Source: Sharpea azabuensis DSM 18934
GTDB taxonomy: Bacteria; Bacillota_I; Bacilli_A; Erysipelotrichales; Coprobacillaceae
Assembly: GCF_000702165.1 (NCBI RefSeq)
Contig: NZ_JNKU01000003.1
Coordinates: 1-64,000, forward strand
Length of the DNA: 64,000 bases
Reading direction: 5' to 3'
The position numbers and the translations under genes are program-made. The notes under the pieces are model-generated. The model worked only from the letters and a program-made list of their open reading frames with translations, was not told where the DNA came from and made no database searches. Below, one piece after another: positions 7,159 to 55,810 of the stretch (the first letter of the stretch is position 1; every line of letters begins with the position of its first letter).

Positions 7159-9129
7159 ATGGATTCTGAATTATCTATTGCAACCATTCGATCTCTTGGC
7201 ATTGATATGATCAATAAAGCTAAGTCAGGTCATCCAGGTATGGTATTAGATGCTGCACCTGCTTTATACACGCTCTTTACAAAAGAATTACGTGTTAATC
7301 CTAAGCAAGCAAAATGGGACAACCGTGATCGTTTTGTTCTCGCAAGCGGACATGCAAGTGCATTGCTTTATTCATTATTACACTTGTCAGGCTTTGATCT
7401 TTCTATCGAAGATCTTAAAGCATTCAGACAATGGGGAAGCAAGACGCCTGGTCATCCTGAATGTGATGTAACCGATGGTGTTGACGCTTCAAGCGGTCCT
7501 TTGGGGCAGGGTATTCCTATGGCTGTAGGTATGGCTATGGCAGAAAAATTCTTAGCCACAAAATACAATAAGCCAGATTTCAATATCGTTGATCATTATA
7601 CATATGTATTATGTGGTGATGGTGATATGGAAGAAGGTGTTTCTTATGAAGCGTCTTCATTAGCAGGTCATCTTGCTTTAGGCAAACTTATTGTGATTTA
7701 TGATAATAACGATGTTACACTAGATGGTCCTTTATCTTATTCATTTAGTGAGAATGTCAAGAAGCGTTATGAAGCGATGAACTGGCAGGTTATTGAAGTT
7801 GCTGATGGCAATGACACAACAGCCATGCTTAGAGCTATTCGTCGTGCTAAGAAGGAAAGCTTCAAGCCATCAATCATTATCATGAAGACAACAATTGGCT
7901 ATGGTTCAAAGAACCAGGGTACAAATAAGGTTCATGGCGCTCCATTAGGCGAAGAGGATGGCAAGAACGCTAAACTTTCTTACGGCTTTGATCATGAAAA
8001 TTTCTTTGTTCCAGAAGAAGTTTATGAGGATTTTAAAAAGAATGTCTTTAACCGTGGCAAACGTGCCTACAATAAATGGAATAAGGTTTTAAAAGCCTAC
8101 AAGGAAGCTTATCCTGAGGCTTATGAGGAATATATGAATGCTATGGCCGGTAAGTTCACATTGGACTATGAAGAACTTGCCAAGACATATCATTTCAATG
8201 ATAATGAAGCAACAAGAAACACAAGCTTAAAAGTTATTCAGGAAGTTGCTAAGCAGAATCCAACATTCCTCTCAGGTACTGCCGATCTTGCAAGCTCTAC
8301 GAAAACTACAATTGCTAATGAAGATCGCTTTGGTCCTGATCATTACAATGGCCGCAATCTCTATTTTGGTATTAGAGAATTCGCCATGGTTGCTATCATG
8401 AATGGTATGACATTACATCATGGTGTTAAGGTAGCTGCTGGTGGTTTCTTAGTCTTCTCTGACTATTTCAAGGCTGCTGCACGTATGGCATGTCTGATGA
8501 AATTACCAATCATTCTACCATTATCCCATGACTCAATTGCCGTTGGTGAAGACGGACCTACACATCAGCCAGTTGAACAGCTTGCCATGTTAAGAAGCAT
8601 GGTCAACATGCAGGTTTTAAGACCTGCAGATGCTTCTGAGATGATGGCTGCCTGGAAGATTGCAGTTGAAACAACTGATGCACCAACAGCTCTTATCCTG
8701 ACAAGACAGGATGTCCCAAATATCACTAATGCGACTTATGATGATGTGGCACGTGGTGCTTACATTGTTCGTAAGGAAGATCATGAACTTGATGGCATTA
8801 TCATTGCTACAGGTTCAGAAGTTGCACTTGCAATCGAAGCAAGCAATAAGCTTAATGCTGAAGGTATTGGTGTACGTGTTGTCTCTATGCCTAGCTGTGA
8901 ACGTTTTGATGCACAATCAGCAGAATACCAGGAATCAGTCTTACCAAAAGCTTGCCGCAAGCGTCTTTCTGTTGAAATGCAGACTGACTTCGGCTGGTAT
9001 AAATATGTTGGCTTAGATGGTAAAGCTATGTCAGTTTCTACATATGGCGCATCAGCACCAGCTAGCAAAGTGATTGCTGAATATGGCTTCACTGTAGATA
9101 ATGTCATTAAAAATTATCAGGAATTATAA
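7159..9129 (+). CDS. tkt: Transketolase
   Basis: 656 residues, the normal length. This is the ThDP-dependent ketol transferase of the non-oxidative pentose phosphate pathway, cytoplasmic. The thiamine diphosphate motif GDGDMEEG at 153-160 ends with DNN at 182-184; KSGHPG lies at 22-27 and the substrate histidine region SGHASALL at 63-70. The pyrimidine-binding domain has FGIREFAMVAIMNG, and the C-terminal domain has the typical ATGSEV. GGGGGA lies 10 bp before the start. Flanking ynzC and yneF genes match Bacillus, but terminators on each side suggest separate transcription. Confidence 0.97.
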   Translation: MDSELSIATIRSLGIDMINKAKSGHPGMVLDAAPALYTLFTKELRVNPKQAKWDNRDRFVLASGHASALLYSLLHLSGFDLSIEDLKAFRQWGSKTPGHPECDVTDGVDASSGPLGQGIPMAVGMAMAEKFLATKYNKPDFNIVDHYTYVLCGDGDMEEGVSYEASSLAGHLALGKLIVIYDNNDVTLDGPLSYSFSENVKKRYEAMNWQVIEVADGNDTTAMLRAIRRAKKESFKPSIIIMKTTIGYGSKNQGTNKVHGAPLGEEDGKNAKLSYGFDHENFFVPEEVYEDFKKNVFNRGKRAYNKWNKVLKAYKEAYPEAYEEYMNAMAGKFTLDYEELAKTYHFNDNEATRNTSLKVIQEVAKQNPTFLSGTADLASSTKTTIANEDRFGPDHYNGRNLYFGIREFAMVAIMNGMTLHHGVKVAAGGFLVFSDYFKAAARMACLMKLPIILPLSHDSIAVGEDGPTHQPVEQLAMLRSMVNMQVLRPADASEMMAAWKIAVETTDAPTALILTRQDVPNITNATYDDVARGAYIVRKEDHELDGIIIATGSEVALAIEASNKLNAEGIGVRVVSMPSCERFDAQSAEYQESVLPKACRKRLSVEMQTDFGWYKYVGLDGKAMSVSTYGASAPASKVIAEYGFTVDNVIKNYQEL

Positions 9130-9134
9130 TCATT

Positions 9135-9157
9135 GAAAGGGGTCATCCCTTTCTTTT
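9135..9157 (+). terminator. Rho-independent terminator after tkt
   Basis: Stem GAAAGGG / CCCTTTC, loop GTCAT, then TTTT. Confidence 0.85.
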
Positions 9158-9160
9158 GAT

Positions 9161-9189
9161 TTTACAAATGTTTAACTCTTTGTTATAAT
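9161..9189 (+). promoter_or_regulatory. Promoter of the yneF-like gene
   Basis: -35 TTTACA at 9161-9166, 17-bp spacer, -10 TATAAT at 9184-9189 preceded by TGT (extended -10). Confidence 0.8.
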
Positions 9190-9216
9190 ATAAAAGATTT
9201 ATTGGAGGCGAAAAGA

Positions 9217-9426
9217 ATGGCAAACTTTGCAACTGTTTTTATTTCAGTTATTATTGGTGCTTTAGTTGGTTTCTTCTTTGCTAGATGGATGTTCAAGAGA
9301 GAACTTAAGAAGAATCCACCTATCAATGAAAAGATGGTTCGTGCTATGTTCCAGGGAACTGGCCGCAAACCTAGCGAAGCACAAATTAGAAAAATCATGA
9401 AAAGTATAAATGATCAATACAAATAA
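9217..9426 (+). CDS. YneF family small membrane protein (UPF0154)
   Basis: 69 residues: one N-terminal transmembrane helix (ATVFISVIIGALVGFFFARWM), then a basic stretch and a cytoplasmic tail with PINEKMVRAMFQGTGRKPSE, the conserved core of the YneF family. GGAGG lies 8 bp before the ATG; an in-frame TTG upstream would overlap that site. Bacillus yneF also lies just downstream of tkt. The function of the family is unknown; a single-span anchor with a soluble tail is all the sequence shows. Confidence 0.88.
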   Translation: MANFATVFISVIIGALVGFFFARWMFKRELKKNPPINEKMVRAMFQGTGRKPSEAQIRKIMKSINDQYK

Positions 9427-9446
9427 GGGTGTAAGCCCTTATTTTC
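9421..9446 (+). terminator. Rho-independent terminator
   Basis: Stem AAATAAGGG / CCCTTATTT with a 6-nt loop. It overlaps the stop codon of the YneF-like gene. Confidence 0.8.
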
Positions 9447-9464
9447 TTTTTTGGGAGGATTATT

Positions 9465-10094
9465 ATGAAAATCTATATCACAAGACATGGTAAAACAGTT
9501 TGGAATCAGGAGCGAAGACTTCAAGGATGTCAGGATTCACCTCTTGTTGAACAAGGTATCGAAAACGCCTTAGCTTTGCGTAAAAAAGTAAGTGCAATGC
9601 ATTTTGATGCCATCTATGCTTCTCCAATCAAGCGTGCATATGATACAGCCAAACTTGTCTTTCCTAAAGAAAACATTATCAAGGATGAACGTATTCGGGA
9701 AATGAACTTTGGCTTAGCAGAAGGCAAGTATATTGACCATATGCCTGCTAATCTTAAAGATGCTTATACAAAATTATGGAATGAACCTGATGCTATTGAG
9801 GGGATGCCTGAAGGCGAAAGCTATACAAGCATTATTGAACGTGTGAATGATTTTTTAAATGACATTACTCATAAGAACTATGACAGTGTCTTTATTGTGA
9901 CACATGGTTTCTGCTTCACAGTATTCATGGCCTGTATGCTGCATTTAAGCCGTCATGATTTTGTGAAAGTCAATCGTCAGGTTGTTGATGGCTGTTCGCT
10001 AACGATTGTTGATTATGATGGAGATTATCATATTGAAACATTGGGAGAGAATGACTATCTGCCATATCAGTCTAATGAATCCTATACAAAGTAA
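9465..10094 (+). CDS. Histidine phosphatase family protein (phosphoglycerate mutase-like)
   Basis: 209 residues. The catalytic RHG motif is at residues 6-8 (ITRHGKTVWNQE), with downstream R-x-x-E in ERIREMNFGLAEG and the second histidine in VTHGFCFTVFMAC. This is the branch-1 histidine phosphatase superfamily. The protein is shorter than glycolytic dPGM (about 230-250), so a broad-specificity phosphatase is more likely than a glycolytic mutase. GGGAGG precedes the ATG. It converges on plsY with a shared terminator. Confidence 0.85.
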   Translation: MKIYITRHGKTVWNQERRLQGCQDSPLVEQGIENALALRKKVSAMHFDAIYASPIKRAYDTAKLVFPKENIIKDERIREMNFGLAEGKYIDHMPANLKDAYTKLWNEPDAIEGMPEGESYTSIIERVNDFLNDITHKNYDSVFIVTHGFCFTVFMACMLHLSRHDFVKVNRQVVDGCSLTIVDYDGDYHIETLGENDYLPYQSNESYTK

Positions 10095-10126
10095 AAGAGA
10101 ATGGCTTTTAAACCATTCTCTTTTAC
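10091..10126. terminator. Bidirectional terminator between convergent genes
   Basis: A perfect 14-bp stem, GTAAAAGAGAATGG / CCATTCTCTTTTAC with an 8-nt loop, is A-rich on the left and T-rich on the right. It can serve both the phosphatase gene and plsY, and overlaps both stop codons. Confidence 0.88.
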
Positions 10127-10734
10127 TTTAACCATTTGACTTTCGCTTCTTCACCATGAATGATACGTCCAATATTGGCATGATGTCGATAGATCACTAA
10201 TACTGTTATACAGACATTCGTAATACGTGCGACCATGCTGGGTTCAACAAAGAACATCCCAATACATACAGCAATACATCCAAGCATTGATGAAAGTGAA
10301 ACAAACTTACTAATCTTAAGTGTCACTAAGAATGTTGCAAGAGCAATGAAGAAGGAATAGATATTTGTCACAAGTGTATAAGCAATGGCGCTTGAAACAC
10401 CCTTGCCACCTTTGAACTGGGCAAAGCATGGATAACAATGACCAAAGATACAAAGAAAAGCACAAGGGTAGAATAACTCTGGCCAAAGCTGAAATGTGTG
10501 AATCATGAAACGGGCAAAGAGCACCGTAACAATACATTTTGTTGCATCTAGTGCAATAACCGCAGCGCCTGCCTTCTTCCCTAAGACGCGGCCAGCATTT
10601 GTACCTCCCAAATTATGTGAACCAGACTCCCTGACATCTGTATTATAGAAAACTTTCCCAATTACTAAGGCAAAAGGAATGGATCCATACAGATAGCTTG
10701 CTAGTAAACATAGCGTTGTTAGCAGCAATTTCAT
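10123..10734 (-). CDS. plsY: Glycerol-3-phosphate acyltransferase PlsY
   Basis: 203 residues with about five membrane segments. PlsY transfers the acyl group from acyl-phosphate to glycerol-3-phosphate, the first step of phospholipid synthesis in Gram-positives. The three conserved blocks are visible: YGSIPFALVIGK near the N-terminus, SGSHNLGGTNAGRVLG around residues 37-52, and FGHCYPCFAQFKGGKGVSSA near 97-116. It is divergent from parE, as in many Firmicutes. The ATG is preceded by GGTG on the minus strand. Confidence 0.95.
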   Translation of the reverse strand: MKLLLTTLCLLASYLYGSIPFALVIGKVFYNTDVRESGSHNLGGTNAGRVLGKKAGAAVIALDATKCIVTVLFARFMIHTFQLWPELFYPCAFLCIFGHCYPCFAQFKGGKGVSSAIAYTLVTNIYSFFIALATFLVTLKISKFVSLSSMLGCIAVCIGMFFVEPSMVARITNVCITVLVIYRHHANIGRIIHGEEAKVKWLK

Positions 10735-50741: not shown

Positions 50742-51137
50742 CTATGAAAGATACTTAAATTCTATCACTGATAAATCTTTTGTGCTGATATGCATTTCAA
50801 ATCGATATCTATTTTGATTATCGGATATGTCACAATCAATCAAATAGTACGACCACATATCATCAACAGTATAATGAATACGCGTATTGTTTACTGTAAA
50901 ATCATCACTCAGCAATAAATTAGTATCCATTGTTTCACGAAAATAGCGCTTTAAATAAATCTGTATTTGCCTTTGTTCATTAAGTTTTACTTCATCCTTA
51001 TGAAAAGCAAATAAATCCGCATAAATACGGCTTGTCATTAAGAGACTCATAACAACAATGATAAAAATCATTAATGTAACATTTAGAACACTACCTTGTT
51101 GATTGCTCAGTTTGACCTTCCTGCTTTTCTTCTTCAT
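50742..51137 (-). CDS. comGG: ComGG-like minor pseudopilin
   Basis: 131 residues from the ATG at 51137 (AAAGGA upstream), inside the end of comGF. A basic N-terminus (KKKSRKVKLSNQQG) precedes a hydrophobic helix (SVLNVTLMIFIIVVMSLL): prepilin-like, cleavage predicted after the G of NQQG, without the usual Glu at +5. The C-terminal part is beta-rich. Identification rests on being last in the comG order. Last gene of the operon; the efp promoter follows. Confidence 0.7.
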   Translation of the reverse strand: MKKKSRKVKLSNQQGSVLNVTLMIFIIVVMSLLMTSRIYADLFAFHKDEVKLNEQRQIQIYLKRYFRETMDTNLLLSDDFTVNNTRIHYTVDDMWSYYLIDCDISDNQNRYRFEMHISTKDLSVIEFKYLS

Positions 51138-51546
51138 TTTCCTTTTCACTCTTTTCATACAGATCAGCAATAAGATAACGGTATTCTCGTTTGCCACGAC
51201 GCACCTTCATGAGAAGAAAACGATTGTTTTCAAAAAAAGCTACGTCATCAACATCATAGAGCAGTGTTTCATAGCCCGGCGTTTTAACAAGCCGATGATC
51301 ACTCAATTCAATATGGAATTCCTTTCCATCTTTGTCTTTATAGACAATTCCATTGTGGTAGCTTTCAATCTTAGCCGTCATGAGATAGTCGGAAAGTTGT
51401 TTTGTTCCAATGGAAAGATCACTATCAATTTTTACTTCAGGCATCTTTAAAGACCTTATCATGCCATAAGCAGTCGAAGTGATCAGAATCGTAATTGAAA
51501 GTGCTAATAACATTTCTACGAGCGTAAAACCTTTTCGATTATATAT
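51091..51546 (-). CDS. comGF: ComGF-like minor pseudopilin with probable AUA start
   Basis: The prepilin leader and helix NRKGFTLVEMLLALSITILI are encoded in a frame that is closed by TGA at 51553-51555. Between that stop and the cleavage Gly the codons are CCT, CCC, ATA, TAT, AAT, CGA, AAA, GGT, with no ATG, GTG or TTG. ATA at 51544-51546 sits 6 bp after a perfect GGAGGTGA. A start at the first ATG (51513) would delete the leader and cleavage site. So the product is probably 151 residues, initiated at AUA. The C-terminal tail is acidic (KSEKENEEEKQEGQTEQ). Confidence 0.72.
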   Translation of the reverse strand: MYNRKGFTLVEMLLALSITILITSTAYGMIRSLKMPEVKIDSDLSIGTKQLSDYLMTAKIESYHNGIVYKDKDGKEFHIELSDHRLVKTPGYETLLYDVDDVAFFENNRFLLMKVRRGKREYRYLIADLYEKSEKENEEEKQEGQTEQSTR

Positions 51547-51725
51547 GGGAGGTCACCTCCATACTGCTTCGTTATTTCTTCTTCCACCTGATGACTATTG
51601 GCATGCAATACTCTTTGGTAAGAACGATTTAGGCTAGCTTGTAAAGAAATCATTCCAACGAGTACAGAGCAGAAAATCATAAAGGCGAAAAGCGCTTCAA
51701 TCATAGTACTTCCCTTACTTGACAT
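51516..51725 (-). CDS. comGE: ComGE-like minor pseudopilin
   Basis: 69 residues from the ATG at 51725 (GGAAGTGG upstream). The prepilin leader is very short: MSSKG, then STMIEALFAFMIFCSVLVGM, with the +5 Glu present. A hydrophilic C-terminus follows. Its reading frame covers the comGF ribosome site and initiation codon, ending 30 bp inside comGF, so ribosomes finishing comGE would unfold the comGF hairpin. Confidence 0.75.
   Translation of the reverse strand: MSSKGSTMIEALFAFMIFCSVLVGMISLQASLNRSYQRVLHANSHQVEEEITKQYGGDLPYIIEKVLRS
51548..51560 (-). promoter_or_regulatory. Shine-Dalgarno of comGF inside a hairpin
   Basis: GGAGGTGACCTCC: GGAGG pairs with CCTCC around TGA. The ribosome site of comGF is thus self-sequestered unless ribosomes translating comGE open it. 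Confidence 0.65.
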
Positions 51726-52116
51726 AAAACGCACCACTTCCTAACTGAAAAACAAATTCATAGATTTTTCCCGGCGAGCTAAGTCTGATTGTTTTAGCAA
51801 TCTTGATATGTCCGGAAGCATTAAATGTAAACTGGTAATGATTGAGGAATTGATAATCATTCGCTAAAACGACTTCTTTCTCGAACTGATTACTGCTGAT
51901 TTCAACACAATTGCTGTCGCAAACAACTTTAACAGTCTCATGCTTGACCATGGCTTGACTTCTTGCTAATTGAAAGGCGTGTGTAACCAACGCTATTTGT
52001 GCCTGTGCACTCGCCTTAGGCTTTCTGAAAGTCAATGTAATTGATGAAATGATTACTGTAATAGCTAAAACAAAGATCATTTCAACAAGTGTAAATCCCT
52101 TTCTATTTGCTAACAT
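51715..52116 (-). CDS. comGD: ComGD-like pseudopilin
   Basis: 133 residues from the ATG at 52116, inside the end of comGC. Class leader MLANRKG, then FTLVEMIFVLAITVIISSI with the +5 Glu. The globular part has two cysteines (VVCDSNCVEIS) that could form a disulfide. The earlier in-frame ATG at 52128 is possible. Confidence 0.82.
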   Translation of the reverse strand: MLANRKGFTLVEMIFVLAITVIISSITLTFRKPKASAQAQIALVTHAFQLARSQAMVKHETVKVVCDSNCVEISSNQFEKEVVLANDYQFLNHYQFTFNASGHIKIAKTIRLSSPGKIYEFVFQLGSGAFYVK

Positions 52117-52411
52117 AGGCCTGACCATCACTGATATAGATGCTTTTGCCATTTGGGCATACAGCCTGCTTCTCTGTCAGGTAAGGTGTCGAACCGCTTG
52201 TAAGCTGGGAAATGCTTGTTGGAAGCTGTTCATGTTCAATTTCATAAAGGATAATTTGTGAATTCACGACTTCTATTTGTGCTTGGCAGCCCTTGTCCTT
52301 GACTATTCTATTTTTATTAGTCACATAAGGGATAACAAGCAACAGTATCACAAGAATAACAGAAATACAGAAAATCATTTCAATGAGTGTAAACCCCTTG
52401 TTTTTCATCAT
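52103..52411 (-). CDS. comGC: ComGC major competence pseudopilin
   Basis: 102 residues from the ATG at 52411 (AGAGG 6 bp upstream); the longer open frame lies in the preceding gene. Leader MMKNKG is followed by FTLIEMIFCISVILVILLLVIP, the classic type IV prepilin helix with Glu at +5. A small C-terminal domain has TNKNRIVKDKGCQAQIE. This is the main subunit of the pseudopilus that captures external DNA. The prepilin peptidase ComC is not in the window. Confidence 0.92.
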   Translation of the reverse strand: MMKNKGFTLIEMIFCISVILVILLLVIPYVTNKNRIVKDKGCQAQIEVVNSQIILYEIEHEQLPTSISQLTSGSTPYLTEKQAVCPNGKSIYISDGQAYVSK

Positions 52412-52850
52412 CTTTAACCTCTTCTTTCTTTGCATAATGATGCATGAGATAACTTTGTGCAATACAAGTTTGTATTTCCGATAAGCCTGTCGCAATAATA
52501 CTTGCACAAGCAATCGTCAGGAAGCTTTCTTGCTGAGTGTGATTTAGATAGCCCTTTAAGGCAATCTTATTGCCATCATAAATAACTTCCATCTCCCCTT
52601 CTGTCATTTCTATGATGCCATTTTTAAACAAGTAATGTCTTTGACAGTCACAATGGTCCCTTAACCAGCGTCCTAATGAAAATGCATTCATCAGCACATC
52701 CACATATGCCTGATCCTCGCTCTTTTTTAGCAAATGTTCGACTGATAAGACAGTCATCTTGACGGGATTTAGGTCATCCCAGTCTGGATTCTTACCAACA
52801 CAAACACTGTCTTGATCCATGCTAACATAAATCAGCGATTTCATGCTCAT
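52380..52850 (-). CDS. Unknown com-operon protein, family member 3 (between comGB and comGC)
   Basis: About 156 residues; start uncertain (ATG at 52850 or 52844, GGAG just upstream). No membrane anchor. Central block WLRDHCDCQRHYLFKN, then beta-rich GEMEVIYDGNKIALKGYL, then helices ESFLTIACASIIATGLSEIQ and AQSYLMHHYAKK. Shape and several residues parallel the protein encoded at 55236-55694 (YLRYHDSFEGCYLFEE, then AVIIYAIVIAKSLSAKNQQ). The gene overlaps both neighbours, so it is a real part of the operon. I know no such gene in the Bacillus or streptococcal comG operons. Confidence 0.75.
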   Translation of the reverse strand: MSMKSLIYVSMDQDSVCVGKNPDWDDLNPVKMTVLSVEHLLKKSEDQAYVDVLMNAFSLGRWLRDHCDCQRHYLFKNGIIEMTEGEMEVIYDGNKIALKGYLNHTQQESFLTIACASIIATGLSEIQTCIAQSYLMHHYAKKEEVKDDEKQGVYTH

Positions 52851-53265
52851 CACGCTCCAGATTCTTACTCATTACATCCACATAATAAGAATGTAGCTCA
52901 AAAACAATAGCATTTTGAACATCGACAGGCATCGCCCCAAGCAGAAGCCCGCCCAAAAAGAAGATTTGTTCTTCATCAAGATCAGATAATGCATCCTCAT
53001 TCATCAAATCCACAAACACAACATCATCACCAAGAAAAATTCCTTTGAAATCTATAAGCTTTCCCTCATTACGATAGACTTCAGCATAGAGCATCATTTT
53101 AAACAAATGCCTAAAAAGCACTGCATATTGTCCCATATCATCAATAAGCCAAACAAGCTTTTTATACTGACGTAAAAAACAATCCTTTAATATTTCATCA
53201 TTCTGAATATCGGAAATACAAAAACCTCCAACATCATCAGCTATAACTTTTACTACTTCTATCAT
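52822..53265 (-). CDS. Unknown com-operon protein, family member 2 (after comGB)
   Basis: 147 residues, soluble, acidic. The ATG follows the comGB stop directly and has AGGAGA 9 bp upstream. N-terminal beta (IEVVKVIADDVGGFCISDI), helix HLFKMMLYAEVYRNEG, strand KGIFLGDDVVFVDL, and a C-terminal helical pair EEQIFFLGGLLLGAMPVDVQ and ELHSYYVDVMSK. The last part resembles the ends of the other two unknown proteins of this operon. It overlaps the next gene by 29 bp. No recognised family. Confidence 0.75.
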   Translation of the reverse strand: MIEVVKVIADDVGGFCISDIQNDEILKDCFLRQYKKLVWLIDDMGQYAVLFRHLFKMMLYAEVYRNEGKLIDFKGIFLGDDVVFVDLMNEDALSDLDEEQIFFLGGLLLGAMPVDVQNAIVFELHSYYVDVMSKNLERDEHEIADLC

Positions 53266-54264
53266 TTAAATTTCTCCTATCACATTCATCATTGGTAAAA
53301 TGATTGCAATATAAACAACAATCACAAAAAACGCAACAAAGGAGTATACCGTTGGAATCAAATATCTAATAAACTTACTTATTGCCATATCCATTTCTCG
53401 TCTTACTACATCGATATATCCCGAGAGATCTTTGATCTCTTTTGGTGACTGCAAATACATCTTATACATAATCACAAAGAGTCGATCAAAATATTCAAAG
53501 TCTTCAATAATATCCTCAAACGCTTCACCTTCATCAATTCGACTATAAATCTCATAAATCATAATTTTAATATCACTTCTTACCATTGTTTCATTTAACA
53601 AGTAGATAATTGTATTGGCATCCATGCGATCTTTCATAATCTCATTAAAGTAAATCGCAAATTTCAAAGTAAAATATTTCTGAATAAAACGCCTTAATAG
53701 CTTTGTATGTAAGTATCGTTCAATAATACGATAATTCTTGTGCTTCAAGGCTCTCACAAACCGTAGAAAAAACGCAACAATAATAATAACCAGCAAGATA
53801 AACAATAGAGGAATCAGCTGCATTAAGCCTATTAATACTCTAAAGAGAATACTTTTTTGAATCGAAAACGAGGCAAATAAGGCATTGACCTGCGGAAAAA
53901 GCACAAACGTAGAAAAGAGGCAAAACATGACAAGAAAGCTCATCAGGATAAGTGGATAAGTCATCTTGGCAATTAAATCCTTCTTCGTCTTTTCAAGTGT
54001 CTGTGTTATTGCTAAGGCATTACGAATAGCGGCACTAATTGTCAGACGCATGGCAAAGAACTCAAAGAACTCCAGAAATTGTTTTGGAAAATCACATTCA
54101 AGAATAGCATCCTTAAAATCAATTCCTTCCTTAAGCTTAATATTAATTGCATCAGCATTATGATGATGTGTAATTTCCTTACACAAAAGCAGAGTCTCCT
54201 CAATGCCATATCCTTGTTCAAGAAGCTGATAAAGATTTTCTAAAAAGAGATAATCATTGTTCAT
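53266..54264 (-). CDS. comGB: ComGB, polytopic membrane platform protein of the competence pseudopilus
   Basis: 332 residues from the ATG at 54264 (AAAGG upstream). GspF/PilC family: cytoplasmic domain with LLEQGYGIEETLLLCKEI, FFAMRLTISAAIRNALAITQ and DLIAKMTYPLILMSFLVMF leading into the first membrane span. Another span pair lies near 145-170, and a final hydrophobic segment AFFVIVVYIAIILPMMNVI at the C-terminus. It couples the ComGA ATPase to pseudopilin assembly. It overlaps comGA by 11 bp. Confidence 0.88.
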   Translation of the reverse strand: MNNDYLFLENLYQLLEQGYGIEETLLLCKEITHHHNADAINIKLKEGIDFKDAILECDFPKQFLEFFEFFAMRLTISAAIRNALAITQTLEKTKKDLIAKMTYPLILMSFLVMFCLFSTFVLFPQVNALFASFSIQKSILFRVLIGLMQLIPLLFILLVIIIVAFFLRFVRALKHKNYRIIERYLHTKLLRRFIQKYFTLKFAIYFNEIMKDRMDANTIIYLLNETMVRSDIKIMIYEIYSRIDEGEAFEDIIEDFEYFDRLFVIMYKMYLQSPKEIKDLSGYIDVVRREMDMAISKFIRYLIPTVYSFVAFFVIVVYIAIILPMMNVIGEI

Positions 54265-55243
54265 TAAGCTCATCCTTTAAAATATATGAATCACATTTCT
54301 TCTCTGCGATTAAACTTAATGCTGACTGCTTAAATGTCTGATAGCTAAAATCATCATGATGTAAATATTGCATGATAGCTTTACGGCTCATCATTTCTGG
54401 CAAAATGATGACACGCTTTCTTTTCAAGTCATATTTAATCTTCTGCGAGACAATCCCAATCAGGACATCTTCAAGATCTGTTTCACTCACGCCAAGATTC
54501 AGCATACGTTTAATGACAAGCAAAGCTGTTGAGGCATGAATTGTACTCAAAACAAGATGTCCTGTAAGTGCACATGTAATAGCCAAAGAAGCCGTCTTCT
54601 CATCACGGATTTCTCCAATCATTATCACATCAGGATCATGCCGAAGAATCTGTTTGAGTGAGTCATGATAATTGATGCCAAGATCTTCGTTCATCTCGAT
54701 TTGTAAGCAATGTTCCTTAACCATTTCAATTGGGTCTTCAAGCGTCACTATATTCTTGCCTCCCATTTCAATCAGACGATCAAGCATTGCATAAAGCGTT
54801 GTGCTCTTGCCACTTCCCGTTGCTCCTGAGACAAGGAAAAGTCCTGATGTCTGGCGACATATTGATGCGAGGAAGCCACTGAACTCCTTGACAAGCGACA
54901 ATTCATTAATAGTCAGTTTCTCATGATTATTGAGAATACGAATAACAATCGACTCAAAATGTTCCCCTGGTAAAAAGGAAACGCGCAGGAAATAGATATG
55001 GTTGTCAATAAAATAATGAAATGCACCTGTCTGAGGGAAAAGCTTGTAGTTAACATTAATAAATGACTTATATTTGATATAATTCATAATTTTATGGCCA
55101 ATATCTATTTCATAGCTGGCATAGTGTTCAAGCTTGCCAAGCACCCTGAACTCTATATCAAGCTGCTGATCAATTTTCATATGAACATCTGTTGCATGTC
55201 GTTTTAGGGCATGAAAGATGATTTTTTCAAAGAGTTCATCCAT
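54254..55243 (-). CDS. comGA: ComGA, secretion ATPase of the competence pseudopilus
   Basis: 329 residues from the ATG at 55243 (AAGGTGG 8 bp upstream); an ATG two codons earlier is too close to it. GspE/PilB family. Walker A SGATGSGKSTTLYAML near 145-160, Asp box VTLEDPIE, Walker B/Glu IGEIRDEKTA near 217 and His box TGHLVLSTIHAS near 230. It powers pseudopilus assembly from the cytoplasm. As in other ComGA proteins the zinc tetracysteine of PilB is missing. It overlaps the unknown first gene by 8 bp. Confidence 0.93.
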   Translation of the reverse strand: MDELFEKIIFHALKRHATDVHMKIDQQLDIEFRVLGKLEHYASYEIDIGHKIMNYIKYKSFINVNYKLFPQTGAFHYFIDNHIYFLRVSFLPGEHFESIVIRILNNHEKLTINELSLVKEFSGFLASICRQTSGLFLVSGATGSGKSTTLYAMLDRLIEMGGKNIVTLEDPIEMVKEHCLQIEMNEDLGINYHDSLKQILRHDPDVIMIGEIRDEKTASLAITCALTGHLVLSTIHASTALLVIKRMLNLGVSETDLEDVLIGIVSQKIKYDLKRKRVIILPEMMSRKAIMQYLHHDDFSYQTFKQSALSLIAEKKCDSYILKDELNEQ

Positions 55244-55694
55244 TTTCATCGCCACCTTGTTCAAAAAATAAGCAATAAAGTGAAAAAAGCAATAATTGCT
55301 GATTCTTAGCTGACAAACTTTTTGCAATAACAATTGCATAAATAATAACTGCTAATTTGACATCTGTTTCATCATTGTTGACCTTCACTTTGTAGAAACC
55401 ATTTTCTTCATAAAGAAGAATATCCACCGCCTGATATTCAAGATCATATTCTTCAAATAAATAGCATCCCTCAAAGCTATCATGATAACGTAAATAGCAT
55501 GCCAAGGCTCCTATTGCCTCTATTTTGCGATATTGCCTTATGACGCTATCCACATCTTCGATATCGACTTGCTGATCCACAAGCAAATTCGTAATACCTA
55601 ATGCAATACTTTGCATCATTTTCTGTTCATCAAGCTGTTTCTTTTCTTTAACAATGATATTTTCATTCCATTCAATTTTTAAGAGCTGTTTCAT
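55236..55694 (-). CDS. Unknown first gene of the comG operon, family member 1
   Basis: 152 residues from the ATG at 55694 (AAGGAAGG 6 bp upstream). Helical N-terminus with VIRQYRKIEAIGALACYLR, then YHDSFEGCYLFEE, a beta segment AVDILLYEENGFYKVKVNND and helices VKLAVIIYAIVIAKSLSAKN and LLFSLYCLFFEQ. No signal peptide. It opens the operon directly behind the CIN-box-like promoter, ahead of comGA, which normally comes first. Its C-terminal half parallels the two unknown genes between comGB and comGC. Function unknown; a pseudopilus assembly or regulatory role is inference from position. Confidence 0.75.
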   Translation of the reverse strand: MKQLLKIEWNENIIVKEKKQLDEQKMMQSIALGITNLLVDQQVDIEDVDSVIRQYRKIEAIGALACYLRYHDSFEGCYLFEEYDLEYQAVDILLYEENGFYKVKVNNDETDVKLAVIIYAIVIAKSLSAKNQQLLLFSLYCLFFEQGGDENG

Positions 55695-55725
55695 GAGCAT
55701 CCTTCCTTTCTACCCTCTATATATT

Positions 55726-55733
55726 TATTCGCA
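55726..55733 (-). promoter_or_regulatory. CIN-box-like competence promoter element
   Basis: Minus strand TGCGAATA, 7 of 8 bases of the SigX/ComX box TACGAATA. It lies in the -10 position 32 bp before the first gene's start, immediately behind a terminator and preceded by a T-rich tract (CTTTTTTT). No sigma-A -10/-35 pair is evident here. Confidence 0.55.
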
Positions 55734-55780
55734 AAAAAAGTAGATTTTTCTCACCTAAATTTAACTTTTTTCAAAAAACG

Positions 55781-55810
55781 AAAAAAGGCATGGAGTTTTC
55801 TCCATACCTT
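55781..55810 (-). terminator. Terminator of the symporter gene
   Basis: Minus strand stem AAGGTATGGAG / CTCCATGCCTT (one T-G pair), loop AAAA, then T6. Confidence 0.88.

Follow-up and report, generated by a model that had tools for sequence, protein, structure and literature searches.

The Com pilus has been described as a minimal type 4 filament with eight core components, and in Streptococcus sanguinis eight com genes are both necessary and sufficient for its assembly (PMC10790768). Among the late competence genes of pneumococcus are comG, dprA and radC, ahead of which a T-rich stretch is followed by the site TMCGAATA (PMC6560143), and the Com box of S. sanguinis is TTnCGAATA (PMC10790768). 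The present work deals with the comG operon of Sharpea azabuensis DSM 18934, found in a 64,000-nucleotide stretch of its 2.41 Mb genome (G000; positions 1 to 64,000 of contig NZ_JNKU01000003.1, hereafter the window), in which three additional genes, here called X1, X2 and X3, are inserted among those of the pilus. Together with X4 and X5, which head the dprA operon of the same genome, they appear to form a previously undescribed family, and the presence of five related small, predicted cytoplasmic proteins in the DNA-uptake operons of Sharpea suggests an extra, lineage-specific layer. In the open-access literature no paper was found that joins Erysipelotrichaceae, natural competence and comG, and none on competence in Sharpea.

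Three additional genes in the comG operon

The operon is complete and lies on the minus strand from 55.7 to 50.7 kb of the window, with all seven genes from comGA to comGG in the usual order (table 1). X1 precedes comGA, while X2 and X3 stand between comGB and comGC, exactly at the positions given in a preliminary description of this DNA, which also held that the three genes are built into the operon. The coordinates bear this out: X1 runs 8-14 nt into comGA, the ATG of X2 immediately follows the comGB stop, and X2 overlaps X3, as X3 does comGC. A terminator-like hairpin parts X1 from the upstream gene.

Comparison with Sharpea porci (G031), the only congener in the comparison set, indicates that X1-X3 are real genes, because their order is kept, the ratios of non-synonymous to synonymous substitution rates (dN/dS, by NG86) are low, and the substitutions are concentrated at third positions. 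The ratios, approximately 0.16 for X1, 0.18 for X2 and 0.07 for X3, are rough because dS is near saturation. At the protein level X1-X3 diverge about as much as the minor pilins ComGD-ComGG (60-72% identity), whereas ComGA (91%) and ComGC (98%) are far better conserved.

A survey of 76 other comG loci in the order, 36 from the same family and 40 from a second one (a few loci incomplete and unjudgeable at one junction), revealed extra comG genes in two genomes, S. porci and a member of the sister genus (G011). The latter carries Y1 (145 amino acids, aa) before comGA and Y2 (138 aa) between comGB and comGC, that is, at the same junctions as Sharpea, and neither is retrieved by BLAST with X1-X3. 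Elsewhere in the family the comGB-comGC spacing is at most 65 nt wherever both genes were found; two loci of the second family have gaps of 125 and 293 nt with no open reading frame (ORF) of 60 aa inside. A class-wide profile search returned, beyond Sharpea and G011, just weak partial or interrupted matches. The genes are thus lineage-specific, as first supposed, being confined among the surveyed comG loci to Sharpea and G011; linkage to comG in close relatives, which the preliminary description had named as a test, holds for one surveyed genus and fails in all the others. One genome of the second family (G072, locus L087) has a 94-aa ORF abutting comGA at 1525-1809.

A second location: the dprA operon

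A genome search with the promoter-like element of the comG operon, described below, led to X4 (159 aa) and X5 (150 aa), which follow a copy of the element and precede dprA, all overlapping, so that Sharpea has at least five members of the family. S. porci shows the same X4-X5-dprA arrangement, with 55 and 57% identity to the S. azabuensis proteins and dN/dS of approximately 0.16 and 0.12, respectively.

Six further dprA loci were read (G019, G027, G011, G010, G030 and G002). A pair of genes, Z4 and Z5, precedes dprA in G019, the comG operon of which is complete without any X gene. In G027 (locus L176) a single 119-aa ORF lies directly after a promoter-like element and before dprA; this candidate member has, by eye, a shortened version of the family layout, and fell just short in the similarity test (mean z 0.90 against a control maximum of 0.97). 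No X-type gene precedes dprA in G011, G010, G030 or G002, and the comEA-comEC operons of Sharpea and G011 contain none. The arrangements of G011 and G019 are each represented by one genome.

Evidence for a single family

The similarity between the proteins was evaluated with a profile test, against 1000 shuffles and 278 control proteins, and with a mean-similarity test, against 110 control proteins (for X2, also 500 shuffles). X1 and X3 can be aligned over their full length (hhalign E 8e-4) with a profile alignment z of 7.2, a value reached by none of the shuffles and exceeding all controls. Y2 scored z 5.4 against the X1+X3 profile and Y1 a moderate 4.2 against that of X1+X3+Y2, both likewise unmatched by any of 1000 shuffles and above all 278 controls. 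Pairwise z values were 4.8 for X1-Z4 (hhalign E 7e-4), 4.2 for X5-Z5, 4.0 for X1-X4, 3.8 for X4-Y1 and 3.2 for X1-X5.

The preliminary description had proposed that the three comG-linked genes belong to one family. The homology of X1 and X3 is beyond chance, and X2 joins them by mean similarity: its single-pair comparisons were not significant, its mean similarity to the eight relatives exceeded all 500 shuffles and 110 controls, and its membership is accordingly probable but weaker. The assignment of X4, X5, Z4 and Z5 is, like that of X2, based on mean similarity. That these are unrelated small alpha/beta genes, alike in composition and secondary structure, would explain why many pairs are dissimilar (X3-X4 and X4-X5, for example) and why profile-profile comparison is significant for X1-X3 and X1-Z4 alone; such an origin is improbable, however, given that all nine candidates (X1-X5, Y1-Y2 and Z4-Z5) surpass every control protein in mean similarity and that the profile test also brings in Y1 and Y2.

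Searches of PHROGs, Pfam and NCBIfam (the last two to E 1) gave nothing credible for the X proteins, X4 and X5 having no family match, and the same was true of HMMER against Protein Data Bank (PDB) sequences. A phage match of X2 (MT836723, E 0.1) falls inside a sigma-factor-like gene and was attributed to chance. ComGG proteins topped the control list of X1; derivation of X1 from ComGG was rejected, the hhalign comparison of the ComGG profile with that of X1+X3+Y2 giving E 0.25. That value and the lack of an N-terminal hydrophobic helix also speak against the X proteins being minor pilins.

Table 1. Features of the comG operon in the window.
Feature	Position	Strand	Remarks
Terminator-like hairpin	55785..55810	-	closes the upstream gltP-like gene
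Promoter-like element	55726..55752	-	GAGAAAAAT-N11-GCGAATA, competence-type, ahead of X1
X1	55236..55694	-	152 aa; first gene of the operon; S. porci ortholog 58% identical
comGA	54254..55249	-	assembly ATPase; NCBIfam NF041000 E 3e-81, Pfam T2SSE; start 55249 or 55243
comGB	53266..54273	-	platform protein; NCBIfam NF041012 E 1e-41
X2	52822..53265	-	147 aa; S. porci 67%; probable family member, by mean similarity alone
X3	52380..52850	-	154-156 aa; S. porci 63%; homologous to X1
comGC	52103..52411	-	major pilin; NCBIfam NF040999 E 1.4e-21
comGD	51715..52125	-	minor pilin; NCBIfam NF040982 E 1.1e-19
comGE	51516..51737	-	minor pilin; by position; weak profile match E 0.004
comGF	51091..51513	-	minor pilin; NCBIfam NF041002 E 2e-9, Pfam ComGF
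comGG	50742..51140	-	minor pilin; assigned from position and from a profile built on its counterparts in relatives

Physical properties and predicted structure

The X proteins are short (147-159 aa, with 147-156 aa for X1-X3), and most members of the family are acidic. As the preliminary description had it, the comG-linked proteins should be cytoplasmic, in that no transmembrane segment was detected in X1-X3, Y1 or Y2: their maximum 19-residue hydropathy is 1.2-1.6 (1.64 being the highest among X1-X3) versus 3.1 for ComGB. An AlphaFold model of X1, calculated from four sequences, has a bbaa-(short helix)-bbaa arrangement with a mean predicted local distance difference test score (pLDDT) of 66.5 and a predicted template modelling score (pTM) of 0.55, so that the duplicated bbaa fold is a low-confidence hypothesis. 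Neither Foldseek (best E 0.09) nor VIA (Z ≤6.5, unrelated chains) yielded a credible match for the X1 model, a result that, since the searches ran on a low-confidence model, is no proof of a new fold.

Size, solubility and genomic location bear on the suggestion, made with the first description of the genes, that the X proteins take the place of PilM/N/O-like scaffold factors. PilM is a larger actin-like protein of approximately 350 aa, and PilN and PilO carry an N-terminal transmembrane helix and an extracytoplasmic domain. The PilM/PilN/PilO genes of type 4a pili and type II secretion systems likewise lie near pilus motor and platform genes, and X1-X3 do adjoin comGA, comGB and comGC and are soluble, as a pilus-specific cytoplasmic scaffold might be. 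The X proteins are, on the other hand, too small for PilM (no credible Pfam or NCBIfam match was found to E 1, at lengths of 147-159 aa, in a comparison by profile and size rather than by fold), lack the PilN/PilO helix, and also occur with dprA, in G019 there only, beside a complete comG operon. Eight com genes, moreover, are sufficient for the pilus of S. sanguinis (PMC10790768). PilM/N/O-like scaffolding is therefore unlikely, and the claim was not retained.

The promoter element and the associated regulon

In its strict form, AGAAAA(A/T)T-N11-G(C/G)G(A/T)ATA, the element has 11 matches on both strands of 600 kb of comG loci, each no more than 75 nt ahead of the gene that opens the operon: before X1 in both Sharpea species, before Y1 in G011, and directly before comGA in eight others. 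X1 and Y1 thus lie between the comG promoter and comGA, because the element precedes them here and comGA in the relatives. The pattern was derived from these same loci, so that the informative part is the lack of matches elsewhere. The form with one mismatch is not clearly enriched genome-wide over a reversed control, the evidence being one of placement, and the simple com-box pattern TTTTTNCGAATA is no commoner genome-wide than its reversed control, hence uninformative, so that only the longer bipartite element was used. The genome search also placed the element before dprA in G002.

The extended Sharpea form, TGAGAAAWWT-N11-GCGAATANATATA, was scanned in 907 kb, mostly from Sharpea and amounting to about a third of the Sharpea genome; further members may therefore exist. 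With zero to two mismatches it was found before X1 (both species), before X4, before a peptide gene followed by radC, before an ABC exporter gene and at one further site with no ORF. Four mismatches separate it from the X4 site of S. porci, and the next matches, unrelated, have five. The element resembles the pneumococcal and S. sanguinis sites and is therefore most likely recognized as a promoter by a ComX/SigH-like sigma factor; to judge from these sequence patterns, the assignment of the X family to a late-competence regulon is well supported.

Among the other genes behind the element, radC and the C39-type exporter were named by reading translations rather than by profile search. At locus L192 (contig C16 of G000, minus strand, approx. 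2.7 kb into the locus) an element with one mismatch stands before the gene of a 52-aa peptide whose leader is of the double-glycine type (MYELTEMEMQSINGGS...), and the radC-like gene comes next; the peptide may be a bacteriocin or pheromone under competence control. At L199 (G000, contig C24, approx. 8445-10540, plus strand) an element with two mismatches precedes the gene of a 680-aa ABC exporter whose N-terminal region resembles a C39 peptidase and which likely exports double-glycine peptides under competence control. A 173-aa gene conserved in two genera also follows the element (L166 in G002; L156 in S. porci, contig C1, minus strand, approx. 956-1529), the S. porci copy being split over two frames.

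The occurrence of the same promoter type before the peptide and exporter genes, along with the fast evolution of the family, might indicate competence-linked immunity or anti-invader proteins, for self-protection against competence bacteriocins or for screening incoming DNA. Such a function is doubtful in view of the lack of membrane segments and of the position of the X genes, which are not beside the peptide or exporter genes and three of which are in the pilus operon.

Proposed function and history of the family

Since members of the family accompany comG alone in G011, dprA alone in G019 and both in Sharpea, they are linked to the competence regulon rather than to the pilus. We propose that X1-X3 belong to a fast-diverging family of cytosolic proteins that serve late competence as partners or adaptors, found in the small clade around Sharpea, a reading to which we give a probability of roughly 0.45. 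Each X protein would be made together with the competence protein encoded beside it and would bind it in the cytosol, whether as an adaptor, as a factor for assembly or stability, or as a shut-off factor, the targets being the ComGA-ComGB motor and platform and DprA. The proteins would probably be hetero-oligomers, as proposed from the fact that the genes come in sets of two or three. The partner role fits the overlapping translation with ComGA, ComGB, ComGC and DprA, the occurrence in sets, the solubility, and the combination of purifying selection with fast divergence. More tentatively, a family with the duplicated bbaa fold could supply several machines of late competence with adaptors of their own and so link the uptake pilus with DprA-dependent recombination in one bacterial lineage.

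Several observations weigh against such partners. Some relatives run ComG and DprA without X genes, so that these cannot be universally required; X4 and Y1 are not clearly acidic; and the fold is uncertain, with only one of five X1 models above pLDDT 60, the other four being much worse, and a failed model of X2 (two sequences, pLDDT 41). Control through a regulator, rather than through the neighbouring gene, fits the same data. The X proteins might then act on the competence state itself, as shut-off factors or proteolysis adaptors for the sigma factor or early regulators, the neighbouring gene being irrelevant and the late operons merely setting the timing. The family indeed tracks the promoter type rather than a single machine: G011 has it at comG, G019 at dprA and Sharpea at both. 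In pneumococcus it is DprA that mediates competence shut-off (PMC6560143). Several copies, tight start-stop overlaps with particular genes, and the same two comG junctions kept in Sharpea and G011 would not, however, be needed by such regulators, which we regard as a real alternative, if not a probable one.

With regard to history, a tree of ParC and ParE joins G011 and Sharpea with 100% ultrafast bootstrap and groups G019 and G027 with them at 96%; one from the Com proteins and EF-P alone left the genera unresolved. Most parsimoniously, the common ancestor of these four genera would have gained a pair before dprA, copies would have reached the comG operon before Sharpea and G011 parted, and losses before dprA would have occurred in G011 and perhaps in G027.

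Comparison with known systems

The Sharpea operon has the same seven comG genes as those of Bacillus and Streptococcus, in the usual order and behind a competence-type promoter, and differs in the three extra cytoplasmic genes, one before comGA and two between comGB and comGC. As to other pilus components, S. porci has a second, PilB/PilT-type ATPase pair, and G000, at the threshold used, just ComGA. Compared with PilM, PilN and PilO, the X proteins are set apart by their size of approximately 150 aa, their solubility and their additional occurrence with dprA. To a filament regarded as minimal, Sharpea adds five paralogous cytosolic proteins encoded in competence operons, and their sharing of the promoter type of comG, dprA and radC points to an extra layer of control or assembly, or else to an example of new parts entering a minimal machine, for which the comG-only (G011), dprA-only (G019) and combined (Sharpea) arrangements form a natural comparison series. 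As in DprA-mediated shut-off in pneumococcus, a cytosolic late-competence protein may act on regulation, X4 and X5 being encoded with dprA; they differ in having no homology to that system and a putative role. Finally, the regulon resembles that of streptococcal ComX (sigma X) in the T-rich stretch and NCGAATA before comG, dprA and radC, whereas the Sharpea element has an added upstream half, TGAGAAA, at fixed spacing.

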